A DNA stretch of 62,462 nt from Chloroflexota bacterium (GTDB taxonomy: Bacteria > Chloroflexota > Anaerolineae > Anaerolineales > Villigracilaceae): contig JACRPQ010000008.1 in NCBI GenBank assembly GCA_016223135.1, forward strand, positions 1-62,462. Direction: 5' to 3'. The first letter of the stretch is position 1. Each line of letters opens with the position of its first letter. The translations under genes and the position numbers were made by a program. Positions 23,731 through 39,100 of the stretch are shown one piece after another. The notes beneath the pieces are model-generated. The model saw only the letters and a program-made list of their open reading frames with translations. It was not told where the DNA came from and made no database searches.

Positions 23731-25047
23731 CTACCCGCAGCCTCCGCCGCTTTTGTCGCGTTTGAGCTGCAGTTGAATCTTGGCTTCGAATTCCAGTTCT
23801 TCGTACTTGATGGGGCTTGGATCGCAGGATTCATAACGACTGCCCAAAGCCGCAGGGAAGAGATATGCCAGTTGATCGGGGGCAGGGTGCGGGGCGGGAC
23901 GAACGTCTTTCAACGTTTCGTCCTCCGCGCCGAAGAAGGCAATCCAGTTGTTGACGCCGCCTTCGAGGATGTACACGTTCGGCACGCTGGATGCGACGAG
24001 AATCTTCCACGCTTGCACAGCGGCAGTCTCATCGTTGCTCATCAGGATGAAAACCGTGTTGGCGGGCGGTTCGGTCAGCAAAACAGGGATGACCTCCTCG
24101 ATGCGTTCCAGCGGCACGTTGACCGCGCCGGCAATGTGATAGATGTTGTAGTCTGCTTCGGAGCGCACGTCGAGATAGACGGGATTCATCGCCTGGTTAT
24201 ATTTCGCCTTGAATGCCTCAGCCGGCGAGACAAATACAAGACGGTTGGCAAGCATTTCGTCGGCGGTATAGGTGACGGTGTTGACGATGGGCGGCTGCCC
24301 TTCCAACTGGGGAATGGTCTCGGTGCGGGTGAAGGTGAGTTTCTGATAGCGTTCCTCGAGCGAGGGCGAACCGATGAAGACAACCGCCAGCGCCAGCGCG
24401 AACAGCGCGCCCGCGCCAATGATGCGAAGTTTGGGTTCGCGGCTCATGTCCTTTTTGCCGATGATGCGTTCCAACTGCTCCGCGCCCCAGAACATAAAGA
24501 GCGCCATCAGGACGATAATCAACACCACAACGCCGACCGGCAGGTTGAAAACCTGGTCTAGGGTCAGGCGCCCGTAGTAGCCGGCGTTGTTGTACCAATG
24601 GGTGAAGAGCGGTTCGGTCTCGGCGAAGAGCGCCGCGCCGAAGAAGCCGCCGAGCATGAAGAACATACCGTCAATCTTGCCGGTGGAGGCGGAAGCCAGC
24701 GAGGTGGTGGGGCAGAAGCCGCCGATGATGAAGCCGACTCCCATAATCAGCCCGCCGACGATGCCAGACCACAAATAGGTGGGGTTGACCCACACCTGAT
24801 TGAAGTTGAGGATGCCCAATCCCACTGCGCCGAAGAGCAGCACCATGGCGGTGACGATGGCGGTGAACATGACCTTGAGTACGGTCAGTTCGGTGAAGTA
24901 AAACTGGGCGGCGAGTTTGCGCGAATCGCCGAAGCCGGACATTTCGAGTGTGAAGCCGAAGGCAAAGCCAATCAGCGCGAAGACTGCGTAGAAGTACCAC
25001 GGGTGAGGCGTGGCGGCAGTGTTGAAGATTTGGAGTGGGAAGTTCAT
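23731..25047 (-). CDS. YeeE/YedE sulfur transporter fused to a rhodanese-like domain
   Basis: This 438-residue protein has an N-terminal YeeE/YedE membrane domain (about 15-200, conserved GFTLEMSGFGDSRKLAAQFYF and GGFCPTTSLASASTGKIDG), related to TsuA-type thiosulfate uptake proteins. A further span lies at about 208-226. A rhodanese-like domain follows at about 275-385 (YLDVRSEADYNIYHIAGAVNVP). The loop that normally carries the catalytic Cys reads ILMSNDETAA, with no Cys, so sulfurtransferase activity is unlikely. The extreme C-terminus ends SGGGCG, which could be a sulfur acceptor. It closes the OTR cluster and probably handles the sulfur compound used there. Confidence 0.85.
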   Translation of the reverse strand: MNFPLQIFNTAATPHPWYFYAVFALIGFAFGFTLEMSGFGDSRKLAAQFYFTELTVLKVMFTAIVTAMVLLFGAVGLGILNFNQVWVNPTYLWSGIVGGLIMGVGFIIGGFCPTTSLASASTGKIDGMFFMLGGFFGAALFAETEPLFTHWYNNAGYYGRLTLDQVFNLPVGVVVLIIVLMALFMFWGAEQLERIIGKKDMSREPKLRIIGAGALFALALAVVFIGSPSLEERYQKLTFTRTETIPQLEGQPPIVNTVTYTADEMLANRLVFVSPAEAFKAKYNQAMNPVYLDVRSEADYNIYHIAGAVNVPLERIEEVIPVLLTEPPANTVFILMSNDETAAVQAWKILVASSVPNVYILEGGVNNWIAFFGAEDETLKDVRPAPHPAPDQLAYLFPAALGSRYESCDPSPIKYEELEFEAKIQLQLKRDKSGGGCG

Positions 25048-25060
25048 AATTATTCTCCAG

Positions 25061-25115
25061 AATTACCATTTACCATTTACTTTACCCGGTGATTGGTAAG
25101 TAGTAAGTGGTAATT
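25061..25115. repeat. Heptamer repeat hairpin between YeeE genes
   Basis: AATTACCATTTACCATTTAC is followed, after a short loop, by its approximate complement GTAAGTAGTAAGTGGTAATT. The 7-bp unit is ATTTACC. It separates two cotranscribed genes. Confidence 0.7.
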
Positions 25116-25117
25116 GT

Positions 25118-25663
25118 TTAGTTCCATAACTTTCTTACAAAATACGCCATCCCATACGCGCCGCCAAAAATGGCAAACATGACTGCCCACGAGCCGGCGG
25201 AAAGCGTCGCCCCGCCGGAGAGCGCCTGCCCGGAGGTGCAGCCGCGCGCCATGCGTGCGCCGTAGAGGAATATCACTCCGCCGAGGAATGCCATCAGCCA
25301 GCGGGTGCGGTCAGAGATGTGCGGACCTTTGGTGGTCATGAACTTGAGCCGCCCGTTGAGCCAGCCGGAGGCGAAGCCGCCAAGCAGGGCGCCAAAGAAG
25401 ACCGGCACGATCCAGTCATCGAGCGGGTTTTTATCCCCACCCGCCATTTTCAGTAAGTACGGGTTGTTGTCCACATGGGAGGGAGAGATGGCGTCCACGA
25501 TGAGGGCGTCAATGCGGCTGGTGGCGCCGGAGGAGCCAAGTCCGTTGCCGGTCAGAAAGAACGCCAGGAACAGTACGATGCCCAAAATCACACCGCCCAG
25601 GTAAGGGTGAATATACGGCTTTTCGGGGCGTTTGAAAATTGACTTTCTGGTTTGTATGGTCAT
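25118..25663 (-). CDS. YeeE/YedE family membrane protein
   Basis: This 181-residue protein has four hydrophobic segments and the family signature ARGCTSGQALSGGATL (about 137-152), whose Cys is the conserved residue in YeeE/YedE channels. Its length equals half of a full-size YeeE, so it probably pairs with the membrane domain encoded at 23731-25047, as in two-gene PmpA/PmpB systems. The upstream basic stretch TRKSIFKRPEKPYIHPYLGG is cytoplasmic. The likely role is import of thiosulfate or a related sulfur species; direction and substrate are inferred from family only. Confidence 0.85.
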   Translation of the reverse strand: MTIQTRKSIFKRPEKPYIHPYLGGVILGIVLFLAFFLTGNGLGSSGATSRIDALIVDAISPSHVDNNPYLLKMAGGDKNPLDDWIVPVFFGALLGGFASGWLNGRLKFMTTKGPHISDRTRWLMAFLGGVIFLYGARMARGCTSGQALSGGATLSAGSWAVMFAIFGGAYGMAYFVRKLWN

Positions 25664-25749
25664 GGTTTTTCCTTTTTTCTAAACACAAAGAGCACAAAGG
25701 TAAGGCGTTTGACTTTTAACTTGTGACCTTGATTTTCATCCTTTGCAAT

Positions 25750-28458
25750 TCATCCTTCATCCTTTTCTTCATGCACTTCCACCTCTTCCCAGCCGGTGAC
25801 CATGGCGCGCATGGCTTCGAGCGGGGTGACGCCGGTGGTGGTCATGTACACATGCACAAGGATGAACGTTCCAAACATCCAAGCCACCAGCGAGTGGAAC
25901 GGCGCCAGCACGGGCAGTCCGCCTAGTGCATTGGCAAACGCCGGAACCTTCTGTACCCCCCACATCAACGCGCCGGTGATGATTTGCAGCGGCAGGAGCA
26001 CGTTCAGAATAATAAAGTAGGTCGCTTTTTGGATGGGATTCATGCGGCTCTCGGGGCGCTTCTCGAACGGATGCAGCTCGCCCTTGAAGATGCCGTTGAT
26101 GTAGTACTTCGCCTGCAAAATGGCGTCGTCGAAGAAACCGTAGGGGTGCGGGATGAATTCGCGGATGCGTTCGGTGGCGAGATGGTAGAACAGCGACAAC
26201 GCAGCATTGACCACCAGGATGACCGCCAGGATGTTATGCACCGTCACCACGCCGCGGAACGAGAACACGCCGAAGATGTCGGGACGGTGGATGATGAGAC
26301 CGGTGAACAGCAGGAGGAGGATGGATGTGGTTTGGAGCCAGTGCCAGAAGCGGCGATACGGCTCATACATGTAAATCCGCTCGGTTCGCTTCGGACCTTG
26401 AGCCTGTTTCCGCGCCGAGAGGTATCTCATCGTCCCGTGACCGAGTACGCCCAGGAGCGAGCCGGCGAACATCAGCGCGCCGAGCCAGTCCACCCAACTT
26501 ACGCGGCTGGAGCCGAAGACGTACATGCCATCGTTGGCAGGGACGGGGTTGTAGTACACGGCGCCATCTGCGCCGGTGACAATCTCGCCGCTGGCATTGA
26601 CGTTGTTGTTCGCGTCGAAGACCGGCGTTACGCCGTTGGGGGCATAATCCGCGAGTTTGATGGGTTGGGAGATGCGCGAGCCTTCGCTGTGACAGGCTTT
26701 GCAGTCATTGACGGCATTCGCGCCGCGCGTCACGTTGTGGTTGATGCTGTACGGCTGGACAAGTCCCTCGATGCGCGGGTTGTTCAATCCCAACGAGGCG
26801 AGTTTGCTTTTGATGAGTTCTTCCTTTGCGGAATTGTTGATGACCAGTTCGTCGTTGGTGAGGACGCCGTCGCTGTTTGCGTCGAAGGCGGCAACGATGT
26901 CGGCGGCGTAGGAGCCGTTTTGGAAGAAGACCGTTTCCAGGTCCAGCAGGCGAACCGGGCGTTGATTGCCGTTGGCGTCGTCATAAACCCAGTAGTAGGT
27001 CGTGATGAGGTTATAAGGGGCGAGCAGCAAATTCCCGTCAATGTTTCTGCGGTTGAGCAGAACAGGCTGGTAGCCGGTGACGAGGGATGTCACTTGATTG
27101 GGTTCGCCTTCCACGCCGCGGCAGGTTTTGATGGGTTCGCGCTCGCTTGTGAGGACGGTCCAGTCATAGGATTGGATGGCGGGGGCGTACATCTGCGGGA
27201 TGTGGCAGGTTTCGCAGGCGACTGCCGCCATGTGCGTGTCAATAGAGGGGAGCCAGTCGGCGTGACCTTTGTCGGGATCGTGGCAGGAATCGCAGCGGCG
27301 CATGGTGCCTTTGAGTTCAGGCGCGGCGTTGAATTGGGCGCTCTGCCCGCGGGCAAAGTTATGGTCGGGGCGCTGGAGGTATTCGCCGATTTCAAGGGTG
27401 CGCGGGTCGTATTTGAGGTGCTCAGGGTTGTCCCCTTGCGCTTCAGTAGCATGGACAGGATTGTTGAGCGCGTAATGACAGTCAGTGCATTGGAGTTGAC
27501 GTTCGGCGTGAATATCCCAGGAGCGGTTGAGATCGTTTTTGCCGCTCAGGTTGACGCCGGAGGCGGAGATTTTTTGAGCAGAAATTACTTGCCCGGTGGT
27601 GGCGGTCTGTGGGTAGTTGAGGTCGCAAGCGGTGTAGGTGAGGGGTTCGGTGCCTGCGTGGACTTCGCCGTGACATGCCGCGCAGTTGGCGTTGGTTGGA
27701 TCCTGGATTTTCAGGATTTCGGATTTGACTTCGCCGGTTTCGTTGAAGGCTTCGGGATTCCAAGTCCATGCGCCGCTGGAGCCATCGTAGTCAACGATAC
27801 CAAGACCGAGCAGGGTGCCGGTGTTGGCGCTGCCGAATGAACCGCTGCGGATGAAGGCGGTGCGGGCGGCATTGTTGGGCGTTTCGATGTGACAGAGGAA
27901 GCAGTTCATCTCCATCGTGCCGGAGGCTTTCCAATCCCACGCTTCGGTTTTGCCGTTTTTGGCGAGGATGGCGGTCTCGTAGTTTTTGGCGCTGAGGGGC
28001 AGGGCTTGGAGCGGCTGTCCGCTGCGGGAGATTTCCGCGGGTCCGCCGCCGACGACGCGCGCGCCGTTGAGCATGAGCCATTCGGCGGTGGAGAGGTCGA
28101 GGCGCTCATCGCCGGGCTGGGAGAGGTAGCGGTAGGTGAGCGAGTCCCATTTGCCGAAGGTCCCTGTGCTGGCGTTGAAGCCGGTGGTGGTTTGGTAGCC
28201 GCTCAGTCCGAGGTCGGAGTGGAAGGCGTGCGATTGGATGAATTGGGTATCGTGGCACTGTCCGCAGGTTTGCATGGTGGAGACTGCGCCCCCGGAGGTC
28301 AGCACGTTTTCGCCGTTCTGGTCGAGCAGGGCAAAGTTTGGGTGCAGGGGCGAGGCTTGTTGAGCAGGAGCAGGTTGGGGCGAGGCGAGAGCCGTCCCAA
28401 TTCCGACGGCGAGGGCGAGGATGAGGAGTCCAGCAATGATGAGGGGGTATCGTTTCAT
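25750..28458 (-). CDS. Heptahaem cytochrome c fused to a b-type cytochrome membrane domain
   Basis: This 902-residue protein starts with a signal peptide (MKRYPLIIAGLLILALAVG). Seven CXXCH haem sites follow, at about 65-69, 186-190, 259-263, 324-328, 389-393, 415-419 and 586-590. A canonical EF-hand loop DANSDGVLTNDE lies at about 526-537. After a membrane span (about 656-677) comes a cytochrome b561/thiosulfate-reductase-b-like domain (about 695-890) with several His in hydrophobic helices (FWHWLQ, HNILAVI, FYHLATE, HSLVAW, FILVHVY). This fusion would link the quinone pool to periplasmic haems and probably feeds the OTR-type cytochrome encoded directly upstream. The order of domains and the EF-hand are unusual. 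Confidence 0.85.
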   Translation of the reverse strand: MKRYPLIIAGLLILALAVGIGTALASPQPAPAQQASPLHPNFALLDQNGENVLTSGGAVSTMQTCGQCHDTQFIQSHAFHSDLGLSGYQTTTGFNASTGTFGKWDSLTYRYLSQPGDERLDLSTAEWLMLNGARVVGGGPAEISRSGQPLQALPLSAKNYETAILAKNGKTEAWDWKASGTMEMNCFLCHIETPNNAARTAFIRSGSFGSANTGTLLGLGIVDYDGSSGAWTWNPEAFNETGEVKSEILKIQDPTNANCAACHGEVHAGTEPLTYTACDLNYPQTATTGQVISAQKISASGVNLSGKNDLNRSWDIHAERQLQCTDCHYALNNPVHATEAQGDNPEHLKYDPRTLEIGEYLQRPDHNFARGQSAQFNAAPELKGTMRRCDSCHDPDKGHADWLPSIDTHMAAVACETCHIPQMYAPAIQSYDWTVLTSEREPIKTCRGVEGEPNQVTSLVTGYQPVLLNRRNIDGNLLLAPYNLITTYYWVYDDANGNQRPVRLLDLETVFFQNGSYAADIVAAFDANSDGVLTNDELVINNSAKEELIKSKLASLGLNNPRIEGLVQPYSINHNVTRGANAVNDCKACHSEGSRISQPIKLADYAPNGVTPVFDANNNVNASGEIVTGADGAVYYNPVPANDGMYVFGSSRVSWVDWLGALMFAGSLLGVLGHGTMRYLSARKQAQGPKRTERIYMYEPYRRFWHWLQTTSILLLLFTGLIIHRPDIFGVFSFRGVVTVHNILAVILVVNAALSLFYHLATERIREFIPHPYGFFDDAILQAKYYINGIFKGELHPFEKRPESRMNPIQKATYFIILNVLLPLQIITGALMWGVQKVPAFANALGGLPVLAPFHSLVAWMFGTFILVHVYMTTTGVTPLEAMRAMVTGWEEVEVHEEKDEG

Positions 28459-28471
28459 GGTTATGTCCGTG

Positions 28472-28519
28472 TGATTGGTAATTGGTAAATGGTAATTACT
28501 AATTACTGCTTACCAATTA
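28472..28519. repeat. Heptamer repeat hairpin inside the cytochrome operon
   Basis: Units of ATTGGTAA and ATGGTAATT are followed by ATTACTGCTTACCAATT, giving an inverted arrangement in the 58-bp gap between two cytochrome genes. Confidence 0.65.
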
Positions 28520-29953
28520 TTTCCTTCCGCCCCATTCGATGGGGTCGCCGGGGTAGCCAAGCGCTTGCCAGTCGAGGCGTCCGTTCTCGCCGTGGCAGGA
28601 GTCGCATTGCAGGGCGTTTTCGGCGGGCTGCACCATGTGGGTGGTGGGCCAGTACATGTAGGTGGTGGCGAAGCCGTATTGTCCGCTGTATTTCAGCCCG
28701 GTGATGGGTTCGGCGAGTCGGAAGGCTTGGTCCCAGTTGAAGTTGGTCCAGAAGCCGTCTTTGCCCGAAGTGATGGGCTGAAGCAGGTAGTTATAGACGG
28801 CGTCGTAAGGCTGCTTGGCGATGTGGATTTTGAAGGGGAAGATTTTGGCGGCGGGGTCGTTGATGCTGCCGGCAGGTTTGTTGATGTAGGTGATGCCGTT
28901 CGGGTCAATCTTATCGCCAAGGATATAGCGATATTCGTTGCTGCCGTTGAACCAGAGATAGGTGGGGGCGAAGTTTTTGTCGTAGACAAATTCGCCTTTG
29001 ATTTTGAGGTAAGTGAAGTGGTCATCTTCGCGTCCCTCCTGACCTGCCTGCGACCAGTCCCAATAGACTTTTGTGGGGTCTTCAAGTGCAATCGCAGGGA
29101 TGTGGCAGGTTTGGCAGGCGACGGCGGAGAGGTGGGTGTTGATGCGCTCGTCGGCGTGCTTTTGGTTCACGTGACATTGTTCGCAGGAGACCTGTTCCTT
29201 CGGGTCAATGGTGTAGTTGTCTGCCAGCATGCGCCCGAGGATTTGATGGTCTTTCGTCCAGTGGCAGTCGGTGCATTGCATGTTCAGTTCGCCGCCCATG
29301 TGAACGTCGTTGTTTTCGGAGGGGAAGTAGAGGCTTTCGTCGAGGTCACCATGTTTGACGCCGTTGCCGCCGCCGCCGTCGAAGTGGCATTTGCCGCAGT
29401 TTTCGCGCGTGGGCGCACGGACGCTCTTCGCCGCGGCGAGCAGATCAACGCCTTCGGCGGGGTTGCCGTAAGTGCCTTTGCCGTAGAGAGCGGTGTCGGC
29501 ATGGCAGGCGAGGCAGTCCACGTTTTCGGGGTTGGCTTGCTGGGCTTCACGCCCCTGTTCCCAGCCGTAGCCGGCGTGGCAGGACATGCACTTGTTTTCA
29601 TTGCCTTGTGTGCCGATGCAGAAGTTGTTGATTTGGTTGATTTTGCCGATGGTCACCGGCTCATTGCGCCAGGGGACATCGAACGCCTTTGATTCCCATT
29701 TCCAATGGGTAGTTCCCATGACCTGTGTGGCGGCGTCTTCATGGCATTCGAGGCAAGCGCGGGTCACGTCCTGTCCGGTCTTGAAGTCGCCTTTGACGAT
29801 GTCCGAGTGGTCCACGTGGACGGGTTTTTCGGGGATGTAGTCGGCGGGGTTGGTGGGAGGGTCGCCCGCGCCGAGGAAGTAGAGGATGGGGACGAGGATG
29901 ATCAAAAGGATGCCGATCAATCCCAAAGTCCAGGTGGGGAAGCGCTTCTTCAT
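28517..29953 (-). CDS. Octahaem cytochrome c, OTR (tetrathionate reductase) family
   Basis: This 478-residue protein has an N-terminal signal anchor (about 9-29) and eight CXXCH sites, beginning at Cys67, Cys122, Cys147, Cys186, Cys227, Cys257, Cys280 and one near the C-terminus (LQCDSCHGE). The segment NNFCIGTQGNENKCMSCHAG is the hallmark of the OTR family. In Shewanella the OTR protein reduces tetrathionate and, in vitro, nitrite and hydroxylamine. The physiological substrate here is unknown, but neighbouring YeeE genes favour a sulfur compound. Its ATG overlaps the stop of the ArsR gene (ATGA), and the gene downstream encodes the likely membrane electron donor. Confidence 0.9.
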   Translation of the reverse strand: MKKRFPTWTLGLIGILLIILVPILYFLGAGDPPTNPADYIPEKPVHVDHSDIVKGDFKTGQDVTRACLECHEDAATQVMGTTHWKWESKAFDVPWRNEPVTIGKINQINNFCIGTQGNENKCMSCHAGYGWEQGREAQQANPENVDCLACHADTALYGKGTYGNPAEGVDLLAAAKSVRAPTRENCGKCHFDGGGGNGVKHGDLDESLYFPSENNDVHMGGELNMQCTDCHWTKDHQILGRMLADNYTIDPKEQVSCEQCHVNQKHADERINTHLSAVACQTCHIPAIALEDPTKVYWDWSQAGQEGREDDHFTYLKIKGEFVYDKNFAPTYLWFNGSNEYRYILGDKIDPNGITYINKPAGSINDPAAKIFPFKIHIAKQPYDAVYNYLLQPITSGKDGFWTNFNWDQAFRLAEPITGLKYSGQYGFATTYMYWPTTHMVQPAENALQCDSCHGENGRLDWQALGYPGDPIEWGGRK

Positions 29954-30297
29954 ACATTCTCCTGTGAAAGTTTGTTGATAAGGTCTGCCTGTTGGGTAAG
30001 ACGGGCGCGCATGGCGGCGCGGAGCAAGTCCATTGCCTGAATAATGCGGTTGTCTGCCAGGTGGTAGGTGATGACCGTGCCCTGACGTTCCGCGTACACG
30101 AGCCCGCGCTCACGCAGTACCTTGAGGTGCCGGGATGTAGTGGGTTGGGGAATGCCCAGTTCGTTGGTCAGCTCGGTCACGTTCATGGGCTGTTCGCTCA
30201 ACGCATACAGGATGAGTATCCGCGTTGGGTCGGAGAGCGCGAAGCAGAAGTCTGCTTCGATTTGGGTGATTTCCTGTGTGAGGGTTTGGCTGACCAT
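29950..30297 (-). CDS. ArsR-family transcriptional regulator
   Basis: This 115-residue winged-helix protein has the ArsR/SmtB pattern: ALSDPTRILILYALSE (about 20-35), recognition helix region ELGIPQPTTSRHLKVLRERGLV (about 45-66), and wing AERQGTVITYHLAD (about 68-81). Its only Cys lies near residue 18 (DFCFALSD), so the two-Cys persulfide sensing of BigR/SqrR is not evident; the ligand is unknown. As first gene of the operon, overlapping the octahaem cytochrome gene by 4 bp, it most likely autoregulates the whole sulfur/redox cluster. AAGG precedes the ATG. Confidence 0.88.
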   Translation of the reverse strand: MVSQTLTQEITQIEADFCFALSDPTRILILYALSEQPMNVTELTNELGIPQPTTSRHLKVLRERGLVYAERQGTVITYHLADNRIIQAMDLLRAAMRARLTQQADLINKLSQENV

Positions 30298-30349
30298 GAT
30301 TGCCTTCTTGTATGCGGATAAACGAATATAAGCATAGACATCATAGTCC

Positions 30350-30365
30350 TGTGAATGTTTTCACA
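30350..30365. promoter_or_regulatory. CRP/FNR-type binding site upstream of the OTR operon
   Basis: TGTGA-ATGTTT-TCACA (30350-30365) matches the CRP consensus TGTGA-N6-TCACA exactly. It is centred about 60 bp upstream of the ArsR start, a position suited to activation of the operon. No CRP/FNR gene is in the window. Confidence 0.55.
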
Positions 30366-34249: not shown

Positions 34250-34597
34250 TTATGCGTACAATCCCCAATCCAGCGCGGACGGGTCTTCCATCATCGAGAA
34301 ATCCCAAACATCCATGCCCATTTCGATGGTGACGGGCATGTTTAAACCCTCCTGCGCTTTGGCTTTGGTCATCTCAATCATGGCGGGACCGTAGGGGCAG
34401 AAAGGTGTGGTGAGAATCATCTTGAGATGCGCCACGCCGTTTTCGATGGAAATGTCGCGCACCAACCCCAGTTGAATGATGTGCATCCCGATTTCGGGAT
34501 CAACCACTTCGGAAAGTTTTTCGCGCGCAGGCTTAACCAATTCGGGGTGTGTTTGATGGATGCTCCATTGAATTTCTTTGACGGTTTGTTCGGTCAT
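34250..34597 (-). CDS. SufT-like iron-sulfur assembly protein (MIP18/DUF59)
   Basis: This 115-residue protein has the MIP18/PaaD/SufT fold signature: VVDPEIGMHIIQLGLVRDISIENG (about 31-54), LTTPFCPYGPAM (about 62-73) with the conserved Cys67, and a helical end. SufT-type proteins help mature Fe-S proteins, often under high iron-sulfur demand. It lies 15 bp after sufR on the same strand and next to the suf operon, which supports this role. The acidic C-terminal tail (EDPSALDWGLYA) is longer than in short DUF59 proteins. Confidence 0.85.
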   Translation of the reverse strand: MTEQTVKEIQWSIHQTHPELVKPAREKLSEVVDPEIGMHIIQLGLVRDISIENGVAHLKMILTTPFCPYGPAMIEMTKAKAQEGLNMPVTIEMGMDVWDFSMMEDPSALDWGLYA

Positions 34598-34612
34598 GGA
34601 TGTCCTCTTGGA

Positions 34613-35236
34613 TTAATTCTTTGCCGCTACCGGCTGTACAACATACGTGCAATGTGAGCCTCCGCTCAGAATGCACTGTACTTTGCTGGCTGGCACTGCC
34701 AGCATTTTGGAGATCAGGGTCTGATCCATGGTGCAGACTTCGGGATGCGATATGCCGATTTGATAATAAGGGCAGGAGATTTCGTGGATTTGATATTGCC
34801 CGTCCTTCAGTTCCCATTCGACGGTAAAACCTTCCTGCGCCAGCAGTTCCTTGACGAAATCCAGCCGTTCTTCCATGCTGAGTCCCCTGATGTCGGCAGC
34901 GTACTGGTTGGCGAGATCTTCAGCGACCTGGTTGAAAAGCTGTGTCACTATAGGACCCGGCATGGTCTCTTTCAACTGTGCTAACAGACGTGTGGTCAGG
35001 CGCAGATATTTCGTGGGAAAGCGCTCCATGCCTTCTTCGGTCAGCGAATAGACCAGCCGCGGGCGCCCCACGCCGTGACGTTCCTCCTCCGCCGCGATGA
35101 GACCTTCCTTTTCGAGGTTCGACAGGTGATGCCGAACCGAAATGGCGTTAATGCCCACCGCCTCTGCAATCTCGTTGATGGTAATGCGGGGTTTGCGGAG
35201 CAGGGTCTGAAGAATGCGGTCTTTCGTGCTTTTCAT
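34613..35236 (-). CDS. sufR: SufR-type Fe-S cluster-binding repressor
   Basis: This 207-residue regulator has an N-terminal winged helix (ITINEIAEAVGINAISVRHHLSNLEKEGLI, about 18-47) and a wing HGVGRPRLVYSL (about 54-65). Four C-terminal Cys (155, 168, 188, 196) in ISCPYYQIG, PEVCTM, VQCIL and SHCTY resemble the Fe-S ligands of SufR. SufR senses cluster status and represses suf genes; here it is divergent from sufC and the shared spacer holds an inverted repeat covering both -35 boxes. Its own promoter places the ATG about 8 nt after the -10 box, so the mRNA should be leaderless. Confidence 0.9.
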   Translation of the reverse strand: MKSTKDRILQTLLRKPRITINEIAEAVGINAISVRHHLSNLEKEGLIAAEEERHGVGRPRLVYSLTEEGMERFPTKYLRLTTRLLAQLKETMPGPIVTQLFNQVAEDLANQYAADIRGLSMEERLDFVKELLAQEGFTVEWELKDGQYQIHEISCPYYQIGISHPEVCTMDQTLISKMLAVPASKVQCILSGGSHCTYVVQPVAAKN

Positions 35237-35244
35237 TGGCTGGG

Positions 35245-35326
35245 AGTATACCCGTCCTTGTTTGTATTGTCAATATACTAGAAAAATATCATAAATATTG
35301 ACTTTTCCATCTGTCCCTGCTATAAT
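35245..35326. promoter_or_regulatory. Divergent sufR/suf promoters with shared inverted repeat
   Basis: Minus strand: TTGACA (35273-35268), 17-bp spacer, TATACT (35250-35245) for sufR. Plus strand: TTGACT (35298-35303), 17-bp spacer, TATAAT (35321-35326) for sufC. The arms GTCAATAT (35269-35276) and ATATTGAC (35295-35302) form an inverted repeat, each arm covering one -35 box. This is the probable operator of the SufR protein, allowing one bound dimer or tetramer to shut both promoters. Confidence 0.8.
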
Positions 35327-35332
35327 CCCGCC

Positions 35333-35436
35333 GCAATCATAAAAACGCCAGAAATGGCATAATTTTTGAGCGTAACAGGCGTTTCTAGCGCCCCGTGCAC
35401 CCGAGAATGCACGTTACGCCCTTAGGAGCATGAGGA
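35333..35436 (+). promoter_or_regulatory. Structured 5' leader of the suf operon
   Basis: The predicted 100-nt leader holds interleaved complementary segments: AAACGCC (35343-35349) with GGCGTTT (35378-35384), and GCGTAAC (35370-35376) with GTTACGC (35413-35419), plus the hairpin CGTGCA/TGCACG (35394-35413). The first two pairings cross, as in a pseudoknot, and the third competes with the second. TTAGGAGCATGAGG then leads to the sufC ATG. It does not match a riboswitch class that I know. Confidence 0.45.
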
Positions 35437-36216
35437 ATGTCGCAACTCGAAATCAAGAATTTGCACGTCAGCATTGAAGGGAAGGAGATACTCAAAGGTC
35501 TCGACCTGACCGTGGAACAGGGCAAAGTCCACGCCATTATGGGACCGAACGGTACCGGAAAATCCACGCTTGCCTACACCCTGATGGGGCATCCAGCCTA
35601 CACCGTGACGGAAGGGGAGGTCATTTTCAAGGGGCAAAACATTCTCGAACTGGAGCCTGACGAGCGCTCCCGCTTGGGAATCTTTTTAGCGTTTCAATAT
35701 CCCGTTGCCATCCCCGGCGTGACGGTGGCAAACTTCCTGCGTACTGCCATCAATGCCCGCCGCCGCGCTGAAAACCCTGAAGACAAGGGCATTCCCATTC
35801 CTGAGTTTCGCAAACTGCTCAAGGAAAAGATGGCAATGCTCAAAATGGATCCAAACTTCGCCGGGCGCTATCTCAACGACGGCTTTTCCGGCGGCGAGAA
35901 GAAACGCGCCGAGATTTTGCAGATGGCAACCCTCCAGCCGGAAATCGCCATTTTGGACGAGACCGATTCAGGTCTGGACATTGACGCGCTGCGCATCGTG
36001 GCGGAGGGCGTCAACGCCTTGATGGGCAAAGACTTGGGCGTGCTGGTCATCACGCACTATCAGCGTCTGTTGAACTACATCAAGCCCGATTACGTCCACG
36101 TGATGATGGGCGGGCGGATCGTCGAATCGGGTGGCGCGGACCTTGCCCTGCACCTCGAAGAGAAGGGCTACGAGTGGATCCGCGAAAAGTATGTGGAAGA
36201 AGAAGCCGCAGCGTAG
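35437..36216 (+). CDS. sufC: Fe-S assembly ATPase SufC
   Basis: This 259-residue ABC-type ATPase drives the SufBCD scaffold. Walker [10 protein letters not shown] (about 34-42), SufC-specific [15 protein letters not shown] (about 82-96), signature [10 protein letters not shown] (about 150-159), Walker [11 protein letters not shown] (about 174-183) and the His switch ITHYQRLL (about 206-213) are intact. It is the first gene of the suf operon behind a consensus promoter, with AGGAG and GAGGA upstream of the ATG. Confidence 0.96.
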
Positions 36217-36288
36217 AAACGGTTCGTTGAACAGAGACAGACGGCGGCTGGAAAAGAAGCGGCTTGTCGTCTGTGAAAGGTGAATCCT

Positions 36289-37698
36289 ATGAGCGAAGAT
36301 GCAAAGATTTTAGAAGACATTGGCGAGTACAAGTACGGTTTCCATGACCGTGACGATTACTATGCGTTCAAATCCCGCAAGGGACTCGACCGCGAAGTGG
36401 TAGAGCAGATCTCCTACCTAAAGGGCGAGCCGAAATGGATGCTTGAGTTTCGCCTCAAAGCGCTCGACCATTTCCTCAAGCGCCCCATGCCGAATTGGGG
36501 ACCTTCTCTGAAAGAATTGAATCTTGACGACATTTACTACTACGTCAAGCCGACCGAGAAGCAGGAAAAATCGTGGGACGATGTTCCCGATGACATCAAG
36601 CGCACGTTCGACCGTCTGGGCGTGCCAGAGGCAGAGCGCAAGTTCCTGGCGGGCTTGGGCGCGCAGTATGAATCGGAGATGGTTTATCACTCCATTCAAA
36701 AGCATCTTGAAGAACAGGGCGTGATTTTCCTCTCGATTGAAGACGGCTTGAAACAGCACCCCGACCTGTTCCGCGAGTATTTTGGCACGGTCATTCCAAT
36801 TGAAGATAACAAGTTCGCCGCGTTGAACAGCGCCGTGTGGTCGGGCGGTTCGTTCGTGTACGTACCGAAAGGCGTCAAAGTGGATTTGCCGCTGCAGGCA
36901 TACTTCCGCTTGAATACCGCCAACGTCGGTCAGTTCGAGCGCACGCTGATTATCGTGGATGAAGGCGCAAGCGTCCACTACGTGGAGGGCTGCACCGCGC
37001 CCCAATACACCACCGATTCCTTCCACAGCGGCGTCATCGAAATCATCGTCAAGAAGGGCGCGCGCTCGCGCTACTCCACCATCCAAAACTGGTCCACCAA
37101 CGTCTATAACCTCGTCACCCAGCGCGCCAAGGTCTTCGCCGACGCTACCCACGAATGGGTGGACGCCAACATCGGAAGCAAAGTCACCATGAAATACCCC
37201 TCCTGCTACCTCATGGAGCCCGGCGCACACGGTGAAATGCTCTCCATGGCGTTTGCAGGACCCGGTCAAATTCAGGACGCAGGCTCCAAGATGGTTCACT
37301 TTGCGCCGAATACTTCCAGCAAAATCACGTCCAAGTCCATCAGCAAAGCGGGCGGACGCGCCTCCTATCGCGGCTTGCTCAAGGTCTATAAGGGCGCGAA
37401 GGGCGTCAAGTCCAACGTCGTGTGCGACGCGCTGCTGCTCGACCCGCAATCCCGCTCCGACACCTACCCCTACATCGAAATTGACGAAGACGACGTTACC
37501 ATCGGTCACGAAGCGTCAGTCAGTAAAGTGGGTGAGGAACAGCTCTTCTACCTCATGAGCCGCGGTCTCAGCGAAGAGGAAGCCACCACCATGGTCGTCT
37601 CTGGCTTCATCGAACCGCTCGTCAAAGAACTCCCGATGGAATACGCCGTCGAAATGAACCGCCTCATCGCCCTTCAAATGGAAGGCTCCATCGGCTAA
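36289..37698 (+). CDS. sufB: Fe-S assembly scaffold SufB
   Basis: This 469-residue scaffold protein builds Fe-S clusters with SufC and SufD. The right-handed beta-helix core is recognisable by [22 protein letters not shown] (about 187-208), [17 protein letters not shown] (about 224-240), and the C-terminal [22 protein letters not shown] (about 411-432), with conserved Cys in EGCTAP and [17 protein letters not shown] is placed before the ATG at 36289. It lies 72 bp after sufC and is followed by a heptamer-repeat spacer before sufD. Confidence 0.96.
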
Positions 37699-37699
37699 A

Positions 37700-37742
37700 A
37701 ATTACCAATTACCAATTACCAATAGTTTGAAGTAATTGGTAA
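37700..37742. repeat. Heptamer repeat hairpin between sufB and sufD
   Basis: Three AATTACC units are followed by AATAGTTTGAAGTAATTGGT, which pairs back on them. This is one of the repeats placed between cotranscribed genes. Confidence 0.75.
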
Positions 37743-37759
37743 CTGCCAAGGAAACGCAC

Positions 37760-39100
37760 ATGCAGGAAAAACCCAAAGTAGTTGTTTCAAGGACGCGGCG
37801 TCCCGAAACCGCCGTAAAGGACTTCAACTTCACCGAAGCCGACATCCGCCCGGGGAGCGGTTTCGTCGCTTCTTACCGCGCCTCAGCCTGGTCCGCTTTC
37901 AAGAGGCTTCCCCTCCCCGACACCACCCTCGAGGCTTGGCGGCGCACCGACATCCACGCTCTGCCCGTGGACAAATTCAAATTTGCACCCGAAGGCGCTC
38001 ACAAAGACCTGCCTCCCGTGCGCGAAGACCTGCTTCGCCCCCTTGTGGCAGACCAGCACGGCGGGCAGATCGTCCTCGTCCCTGGCGGAGCGAAAATCGA
38101 ACTCGACGAAAAACTGGCTGCCAAAGGCATCATCTTCACCGACCTGCGCACCGCCGAAGAAAAATACCCCGACCTGCTCGCCAAAATGATGGGCAAAACC
38201 GTCAACGTGGAGGAGGGGAAATTTTCTGCGCTGGCGGGCGCGTTTGCCCAGAACGGCATCGTGTTGTACGTGCCGAAAGGCGTGACTGTGGAAGAGCCGC
38301 TGCACTCCGTCCTCTGGGGTCCCGGTCCCGATTTCGCCCACGTCTCGCACATCCTCGTCCTCGTGGACGAGGGCGCTTCGGTGACGTATGTTCACGAGGC
38401 GGCGTCGCCTGACCTCAAGGGCGCCAACTCCATGCACGCGGGCATCGTCGAGATTCAAGTCATGCAGGATGCCTCCCTGCGCTTCGTTGAGCTGCAATCT
38501 TGGGGACGCCACGTCTGGAACTTCAGCCACGAGCGTGTCCGCGTTGAACGCGGCGGCAGCCTCGATTGGATCTTCGGCGCCATCGGCTCGCGCCTCACCA
38601 AGAACTTCTCCGAACTCGACCTCGCTGGCGAAGGCGCGACTGGACGCATGTCTGGCTTCTACTTCACCGACGGCGACCAGCACCTCGACCACGACACCCA
38701 GCAAAATCACCTCGCCCCGCACACCACCAGCGACCTGCTCTTCAAGGGCGCGCTCAAGGGCAGGAGCCGTTCCGTCTGGCAGGGCATGATTTACGTTGCG
38801 CCCGGCGCACAAAAAACCGACGGCTACCAGGCAAACCGCAACCTTGTCCTCAGCGACCAGGCGCGCGCCGATTCCATTCCCGGCTTGGAAATCCTGGCAG
38901 ATGATGTGCGCTGTACACACGGCGCAACCGTTGGTAAACTGGAACAGGAACCGCTCTTCTATTTGAAATCGCGCGGCATTCCTCAGGCAGAAGCGGAAAA
39001 ACTTGTAGTGGAAGGTTTCTTCGACCCGATCTTCCAGCGTATCCCCTTTGAAGGCGTGCGCGAACGCTTCCAGCAGTACATTGCTGATAAAATGTCATAA
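37760..39100 (+). CDS. sufD: Fe-S assembly protein SufD
   Basis: This 446-residue partner of SufB has the family beta-helix and C-terminal helices: LPLPDTTLEAWRRTDI near 42-57, ILVLVDEGASVTYVHEAASPD (about 197-217), IGSRLTKNFSELDLAGEGA (about 274-292), and KLEQEPLFYLKSRGIPQAEAEKLVVEGFFDPIFQRIP (about 392-428), with the conserved His of DDVRCTHGATVG. I chose the ATG at 37760, with AAGGAAA upstream. It follows sufB in the order typical of Gram-positive-like suf operons. Confidence 0.94.
   Translation: MQEKPKVVVSRTRRPETAVKDFNFTEADIRPGSGFVASYRASAWSAFKRLPLPDTTLEAWRRTDIHALPVDKFKFAPEGAHKDLPPVREDLLRPLVADQHGGQIVLVPGGAKIELDEKLAAKGIIFTDLRTAEEKYPDLLAKMMGKTVNVEEGKFSALAGAFAQNGIVLYVPKGVTVEEPLHSVLWGPGPDFAHVSHILVLVDEGASVTYVHEAASPDLKGANSMHAGIVEIQVMQDASLRFVELQSWGRHVWNFSHERVRVERGGSLDWIFGAIGSRLTKNFSELDLAGEGATGRMSGFYFTDGDQHLDHDTQQNHLAPHTTSDLLFKGALKGRSRSVWQGMIYVAPGAQKTDGYQANRNLVLSDQARADSIPGLEILADDVRCTHGATVGKLEQEPLFYLKSRGIPQAEAEKLVVEGFFDPIFQRIPFEGVRERFQQYIADKMS

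Follow-up and report, generated by a model that had tools for sequence, protein, structure and literature searches.

A conserved operon linking an OTR cytochrome to a split YeeE-type transporter with a cysteine arm in Anaerolineales

An operon of five genes, which joins an octahaem cytochrome c of the OTR family to a split YeeE-type transporter, is encoded in a 62,462-nucleotide stretch of DNA (the window; contig JACRPQ010000008.1 of assembly GCA_016223135.1) from a Chloroflexota bacterium of the Villigracilaceae, order Anaerolineales. The operon occurs in many uncultured Anaerolineales and in a few unrelated bacteria, where it probably represents an unrecognised form of thiosulfate-type sulfur handling and uptake. 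Its genes all lie on the minus strand, in the transcription order arsR, otr, hcb, yeeE1 and yeeE2R (Table 1, in window positions), and their products are an ArsR-type repressor, OTR, HCB (a heptahaem c part fused to cytochrome b561) and a pair of YeeE half transporters; YeeE2R, the second of the pair, carries a rhodanese-like domain and ends in a short cysteine-bearing arm. A preliminary description, made from the DNA alone, had named the ArsR, the octahaem OTR, the heptahaem-c/b fusion, the two YeeE parts and a modified rhodanese, all of which were found again at the same positions, while the GGCG end of YeeE2R goes unmentioned there. It had also held that no characterised system has this composition; in agreement, the literature searched contained no description of the gene set or of a YeeE protein fused to a rhodanese and ending in GGCG. 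As a whole, the earlier interpretation is partly supported.

The transporter pair and the conservation of the operon

The two YeeE proteins match complementary parts of one family. YeeE1 covers profile positions 166-309 of the 310 in PF04143, the membrane part of YeeE2R matches the opposite (N-terminal) half, and PmpA and PmpB likewise match opposite halves (PMC11582611). YeeE itself takes up thiosulfate (PMC11073785). The cysteine C142 of YeeE1 is kept in 58 of 59 aligned rows, and C112 and C437 of YeeE2R are invariant in 57/57, a set that leaves out open reading frames (ORFs) cut by contig ends or scoring below 320 bits (L039, L042, L053 and others; L numbers denote fetched loci). C408 of YeeE2R was ruled out as a second obligatory cysteine, being Cys in 41/57 rows and Ala or Ser in 16/57. 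As a separate observation, a stand-alone YeeE half transporter (L104:1900-2440, contig C59 of genome G004) contains an in-frame TGA that probably encodes selenocysteine, because it falls at the exact position of YeeE2R C112. Several other YeeE matches in the family genome search also carry one in-frame TGA, and a YeeE-family selenoprotein is listed in PMC13188914.

Table 1. Features of the operon in the window
Feature	Positions	Strand	Remarks
CRP-type palindrome TGTGA-N6-TCACA	30350..30365	-	upstream of arsR; perfect match
ArsR/SmtB-type repressor	29950..30297	-	HTH_5 PF01022, 70.1 bits; NF033788, 86 bits (cut-off 55)
OTR, membrane-anchored octahaem cytochrome c	28517..29953	-	TIGR04315; PDB 1sp3
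HCB, heptahaem-c/cytochrome-b561 fusion	25750..28458	-	seven CXXCH; C-terminal PF01292, 77.6 bits
YeeE1, half transporter, PmpA-like	25118..25663	-	PF04143, 72.5 bits, C-terminal half
YeeE2R, PmpB-like half transporter with rhodanese-like domain and arm	23731..25047	-	PF04143, 52.9 bits; PF00581, 48.1 bits
GGCG end of YeeE2R, proposed sulfur-carrying arm	23734..23745	-	last four codons before the stop

The rhodanese fold of YeeE2R is supported by PF00581, Foldseek and VIA. The position of the catalytic cysteine is occupied by Ser in 51 of the 57 rows, by Gly in 6 and by Cys in none, and the neighbouring N338 and E340 are invariant; thus, the rhodanese pocket seems to have been kept but re-tasked. 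Beyond this domain, all 57 complete orthologues end in GGCG (GGGCG in the window protein), as do the separately counted proteins of L116, L117, L152, L163 and L173. Indeed, of 3,992 ORFs with 100 amino acids or more in the fetched loci (a set in which wrong-frame ORFs are present and a few loci of one genome occur twice), those ending in GGCG or GGCGG are 64 YeeE2R and four others, all SoxY, which correspond to three distinct genes. The match to the SoxY arm is four residues long; YeeE2R has GGCG only and misses the final Gly of GGCGG. In the predicted topology, the positive residues of the YeeE2R loops (1 vs 7) place the N-terminus and the rhodanese-arm part outside. The structural model has a mean predicted local distance difference test score (pLDDT) of 78.5, with about 90 in the rhodanese part and lower values in the membrane part, and the last six residues (433-438) fall below 50, which fits a flexible arm. 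In two gammaproteobacterial genomes (L163, L173), the rhodanese-arm part forms a protein of its own, which has an N-terminal hydrophobic stretch and adjoins YeeE1, YeeE2 and a 15-haem OTR-type fusion.

Gene order was compared in 74 loci (L032-L103, L116, L117), 69 of which hold an OTR of at least 450 bits and 58 at least 4.7 kb of downstream sequence. In 57 of the 58 OTR loci with enough downstream flank, otr is accompanied on its own strand by hcb, yeeE1 and yeeE2R; the sole exception (L066) has an intact otr with no adjoining hcb, and its genome holds hcb-yeeE1-yeeE2R elsewhere (L151) with a weak OTR match. The regulator gene lies upstream in 48 of the 57 full loci, is missing there in eight (seven from Proteobacteria, and L117, where arsR stands on the other side) and could not be placed in one whose upstream part is cut off. 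Among 150 genomes of the family, OTR is present in 86, 84 of which also hold YeeE2R, while YeeE2R alone occurs in four and neither in 60. Gene order in other genomes had been proposed earlier as a check of the system, and non-conserved neighbours as part of its refutation; the neighbours are clearly conserved, and the genes occur together far more often than chance would allow, in counts uncorrected for genome kinship.

Outside the family, the operon is rare. It was carried by 16 of 400 genomes in a sample of the phylum, two of these from other families, and by 3 of 300 in the order of genome G532 (one being G532 itself and one a fragment). A planctomycete carries hcb-yeeE1-yeeE2R on one contig (L152), and a second contig (L072) has otr and the beginning of hcb, so that the adjacency of OTR and YeeE2R spans Chloroflexota, Proteobacteria and probably Planctomycetota. 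In the OTR tree, the ten proteobacterial OTRs group together (one clade, support 1.0) within those of Chloroflexota, which points to one transfer of the operon; a 45-leaf node has a support of 0.96, with lower values at inner nodes. A viral contig search returned no operon on viral contigs, and a plasmid search only partial matches below 60% identity in 3 records.

Cytochromes and regulation

A crystal structure of OTR has been available since 2004, and the physiological role of the protein, called cryptic, is not settled. Judged by its sequence and predicted fold, the window protein is a true member of the family. It scores 558.5 bits against TIGR04315 (curated cut-off 375), is matched by PDB 1sp3 at E 6.7e-131 and contains eight CXXCH motifs, and its predicted model aligns with 1sp3 at a TMt of 0.81, with a mean model pLDDT of only 68. 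C112 and K159, beside haem-binding motifs 2 and 3, are each kept in 62 of 63 rows (K159 is Arg in L089; C112 falls in a gap in one truncated protein). K159 aligns with the lysine region of 1sp3, and haem 2 of OTR is described as the catalytic, Lys-ligated haem (PMC11024163). Tetrathionate is reduced in vitro by the OTR of Shewanella (cited in PMC11024163). In vitro reduction of nitrite and hydroxylamine by OTR is also on record (PMC11024163; PMC6449678), and the OTR-type enzyme of a member of the Beggiatoaceae can reduce both nitrite and tetrathionate (PMC6449678).

HCB resembles OTR, as its residues 245-436 match OTR residues 172-303 in a profile comparison (probability 97.8); it therefore looks like an OTR/MmcA-type chain minus one haem, and its b561 part is the presumed quinone link. 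MmcA of Methanosarcina also combines seven haems with a resemblance to OTR (PMC11024163), whereas HCB differs in its b561 anchor, in having no Rnf context and in a score of 46.2 bits against the MmcA model TIGR04314, far below the cut-off of 250.

Anaerolineales also have a second type of OTR, which contains 15 CXXCH motifs (L105:4792-9614, L106:5425-10400); it is followed by genes for a Tat-type iron-sulfur (FeS) protein, for an NrfD-like protein and then for a small ArsR. L114, in which only OTR and ArsR were checked, is grouped with it. In L177 and L178, OTR and cytochrome b adjoin apparent molybdoenzyme and FeS subunit genes, as judged by eye.

With regard to expression, a CRP/FNR site had been proposed upstream of arsR. 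The CRP-type part holds, as the palindrome is perfect in the window and conserved elsewhere: among the 23 arsR upstream regions that passed the sequence filter, a site with at most one mismatch is present in 13 (0.1 expected from shuffles) and with at most two in 23 (1.7 expected). The FNR part does not, since the FNR-type site TTGAT-N4-ATCAA is not enriched in the same regions. C18 is the only cysteine of the window ArsR and does not vary across 57 rows; the protein reaches 48.5 bits against the BigR model (cut-off 155). As sensors of the SoxR/sHdrR/BigR kind carry two conserved cysteines that form a sulfur bridge (PMC11582611), a different sensing chemistry is likely, if the ArsR senses sulfur at all. 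The NCBIfam ArsR model TsoR was matched below its cut-off, and no paper on TsoR was found in the literature searched. Further upstream, positions 34250-39100 of the window hold SufT, SufR-like, SufC, SufB and SufD-like genes. A clustering of the flanks places SufT and SufR-like genes close to arsR in 29 loci; it consisted mostly of wrong-frame operon ORFs and was informative only for Suf and for one ABC transporter gene.

Sulfur gene contexts and related systems

The sulfur role that had been suggested for the system gains support from the genes found near OTR in several genomes. In L162, L171 and L172, OTR-b561 is followed by soxY (confirmed by Pfam in L162, by sequence likeness in the others), with soxZ confirmed in L171, and both L162 and L172 have a three-domain rhodanese further upstream of these genes; in related symbionts, SoxY-S3 stands between otr and soxZ (PMC11237559). 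Two loci join sox genes to the operon on the same strand. In L060, confirmed soxY, soxZ and soxB are followed by a YeeE half and then by otr-hcb-yeeE1-yeeE2R, and in L062 confirmed soxY, soxA, soxX and soxB precede a FadL-type gene, otr and the start of hcb at the contig end. Beside the operon of genome G314 (L117:11673-15504) lie genes for a PocR-type sensor, a sulfide:quinone reductase (SQR), a DUF1641 protein and DsrE2, the SQR being of type III (NF049943, 658 bits).

The single TusA of the window genome belongs to a gene run that also holds DsrE2-like, DsrE, Hdr-like, Etf and lipoyl genes. This sHdr-like run lies on another contig (C3; L181:1217-8976, L182:498-12505) and comprises genes for HdrCBA-like proteins, a fused HdrCB-like protein, EtfBA, a membrane FeS protein, two lipoyl proteins and a lipoate ligase, together with TtrB/PhsA-like molybdoenzyme genes. 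HdrC-, HdrB- and HdrA-like genes, the fused HdrCB-like gene and EtfBA stand in that order, and the place of sHdrH is taken by a protein without matches. The cluster resembles type II sHdr as described in PMC11582611, which reports that type II genomes lack SoxT importers. The likeness to type II sHdr-LbpA thus lies in the gene set of the window genome, and the difference in that this set is on a contig other than that of the operon and is missing from most operon carriers. A HdrB (sHdr) marker is present in 33 of the 150 family genomes; OTR occurs in 25/33 marker-positive and 61/117 marker-negative genomes, a weak association (p 0.017, kinship uncorrected).

One of the closest known systems is the octahaem tetrathionate reductase (OTR, SO4144, PDB 1sp3) with its cytochrome b partner; the window OTR belongs to the same family and is linked to a cytochrome b561. 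In 30/30 loci (L121-L150), however, OTR is accompanied only by a small cytochrome b, whereas the operon has the heptahaem-b561 fusion and a YeeE transporter that is split in two and bears the putative carrier arm. The Sox set of sulfur oxidisers (SoxYZ, SoxAX, SoxT1A) would work similarly in outline, with an outer GGCG(G) carrier cysteine, a haem enzyme that acts on this cysteine, YeeE-type import and an ArsR-type regulator, but the operon is without SoxY, SoxZ and SoxA domains, has OTR and HCB in place of SoxAX, and combines a carrier fused to the transporter with a transporter split in two. PmpAB and YeeE (TsuA), which transport thiosulfate or zero-valent sulfur, share the PF04143 halves, each with a conserved cysteine; unlike them, YeeE2R adds an extracytoplasmic rhodanese-like domain and an arm, and the operon is without a TusA-type YeeD gene. 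The SoxY-S3/otr/soxZ islands of lucinid symbionts also place OTR beside a GGCG-type carrier, as in L162, L171 and L172, and, as described in PMC11237559, differ in a separate SoxY and in having no YeeE pair and no heptahaem part of the HCB type.

Proposed mechanism and competing explanations

On the basis of these sequence comparisons, the chances appear even that the operon encodes a membrane-bound, quinone-linked module which handles thiosulfate-level sulfur outside the membrane and imports sulfur. Together, YeeE1 and YeeE2 would make up a YeeE/PmpAB-like pore split in two, each half contributing one relay cysteine, and YeeE2R would bear its own outer carrier, a rhodanese-like platform with a flexible arm and terminal cysteine, as in SoxY. 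We infer that sulfur is held on the arm and that OTR forms or cleaves the sulfur bond at the arm cysteine, for example arm-S- + thiosulfate -> arm-S-S-SO3- + two electrons; indeed, the thiosulfate/tetrathionate chemistry of OTR is the same disulfide-type two-electron step that arm loading would need. Electrons would pass via HCB to or from quinone, the arm would present its sulfur to its own pore, and the YeeE pair would import it, to be passed on in the window genome to TusA, DsrE and the sHdr-like cluster. The ArsR and a CRP-family protein may control expression. The oxidative direction is modestly favoured, as the gene contexts are typical of sulfur oxidisers. More tentatively, the operon could embody a fourth thiosulfate-handling route, in which a SoxAX-like OTR loads sulfur covalently onto an importer-borne arm and capture, redox chemistry and translocation are united in one membrane complex.

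Several observations weigh against this proposal. In vitro, OTR is on record as a reductase, which keeps a reductive direction close. YeeE2R gave no match to the SoxY domain (PF13501, TIGR04488) in Pfam/NCBIfam model scans, and the likeness found between it and SoxY is confined to the short end. The SoxY model had no match in the window genome either, being silent also in 14 control genomes, and the same model matched 136/147 genomes in another search. A GGCG ORF or YeeE was found within 1.5 kb of OTR in 0/30 of the loci L121-L150, and most wider OTR loci (L154-L169, L174-L178) have neither; OTR above the cut-off is present in 109/147 genomes of the order of G535, and a general pairing of OTR with a GGCG carrier is ruled out by most OTR loci of the order searched. 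The carrier link therefore marks certain OTR branches and not the family. On the cytoplasmic side, the sHdr and LbpA labels rest on gene order, the DsrE2 of the window genome scores 209.3 (cut-off 210), and the sHdr marker is present in 25/86 OTR genomes, absent from 61/86, and found in 1/21 genomes outside the family, 16 of which carry the operon or part of it. Since most operon carriers are without the marker, sHdr cannot be the general sulfur sink.

The reductive direction takes its fullest form in tetrathionate (polythionate) respiration with salvage, which we regard as less likely and which would run from quinol through HCB to OTR, with tetrathionate reduced to thiosulfate, import by YeeE as a sulfur source and an arm that merely hands thiosulfate to the pore. 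The tetrathionate reduction by the Shewanella and Beggiatoaceae enzymes (PMC11024163; PMC6449678) and thiosulfate uptake by YeeE (PMC11073785) would suit it, as would the OTR genomes missing the sHdr marker and the SufT/SufR genes near arsR in many Anaerolineales loci, but it leaves unexplained both the loss of the rhodanese cysteine alongside an invariant arm and the sox, SQR and DsrE2 contexts. The same in vitro studies would allow OTR to reduce nitrite or hydroxylamine, with YeeE genes co-regulated but separate in purpose; the co-occurrence of OTR and YeeE2R in 84/86 genomes, their adjacency across phyla and the flanks listed, in which no nitrogen genes are conspicuous, make this highly improbable. 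Somewhat less improbable is a role in sulfane-sulfur homeostasis without energy conservation, in which YeeE would signal to ArsR and OTR would remove reactive sulfur. The YeeE relative SoxT1B does signal to the ArsR-type SoxR (PMC11582611), and the operon is headed by an ArsR with an invariant cysteine; yet 15 c-type haems and a b561 would be costly for a sensor, seven full-operon proteobacterial loci have no same-strand arsR upstream, and SoxR-type sensors have two cysteines where the window ArsR has one.

How sulfur passes from periplasmic carriers into the cytoplasm is considered an open question (PMC11582611). Through the operon, both this transfer and the function of OTR become directly testable. 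If OTR acts as a SoxAX-like arm loader, it would gain a physiological partner, and at least some type II sHdr organisms would gain their missing importer. Collectively, the operon suggests an overlooked sulfur activity in the Anaerolineales, which are common in sludge, sediments and groundwater.

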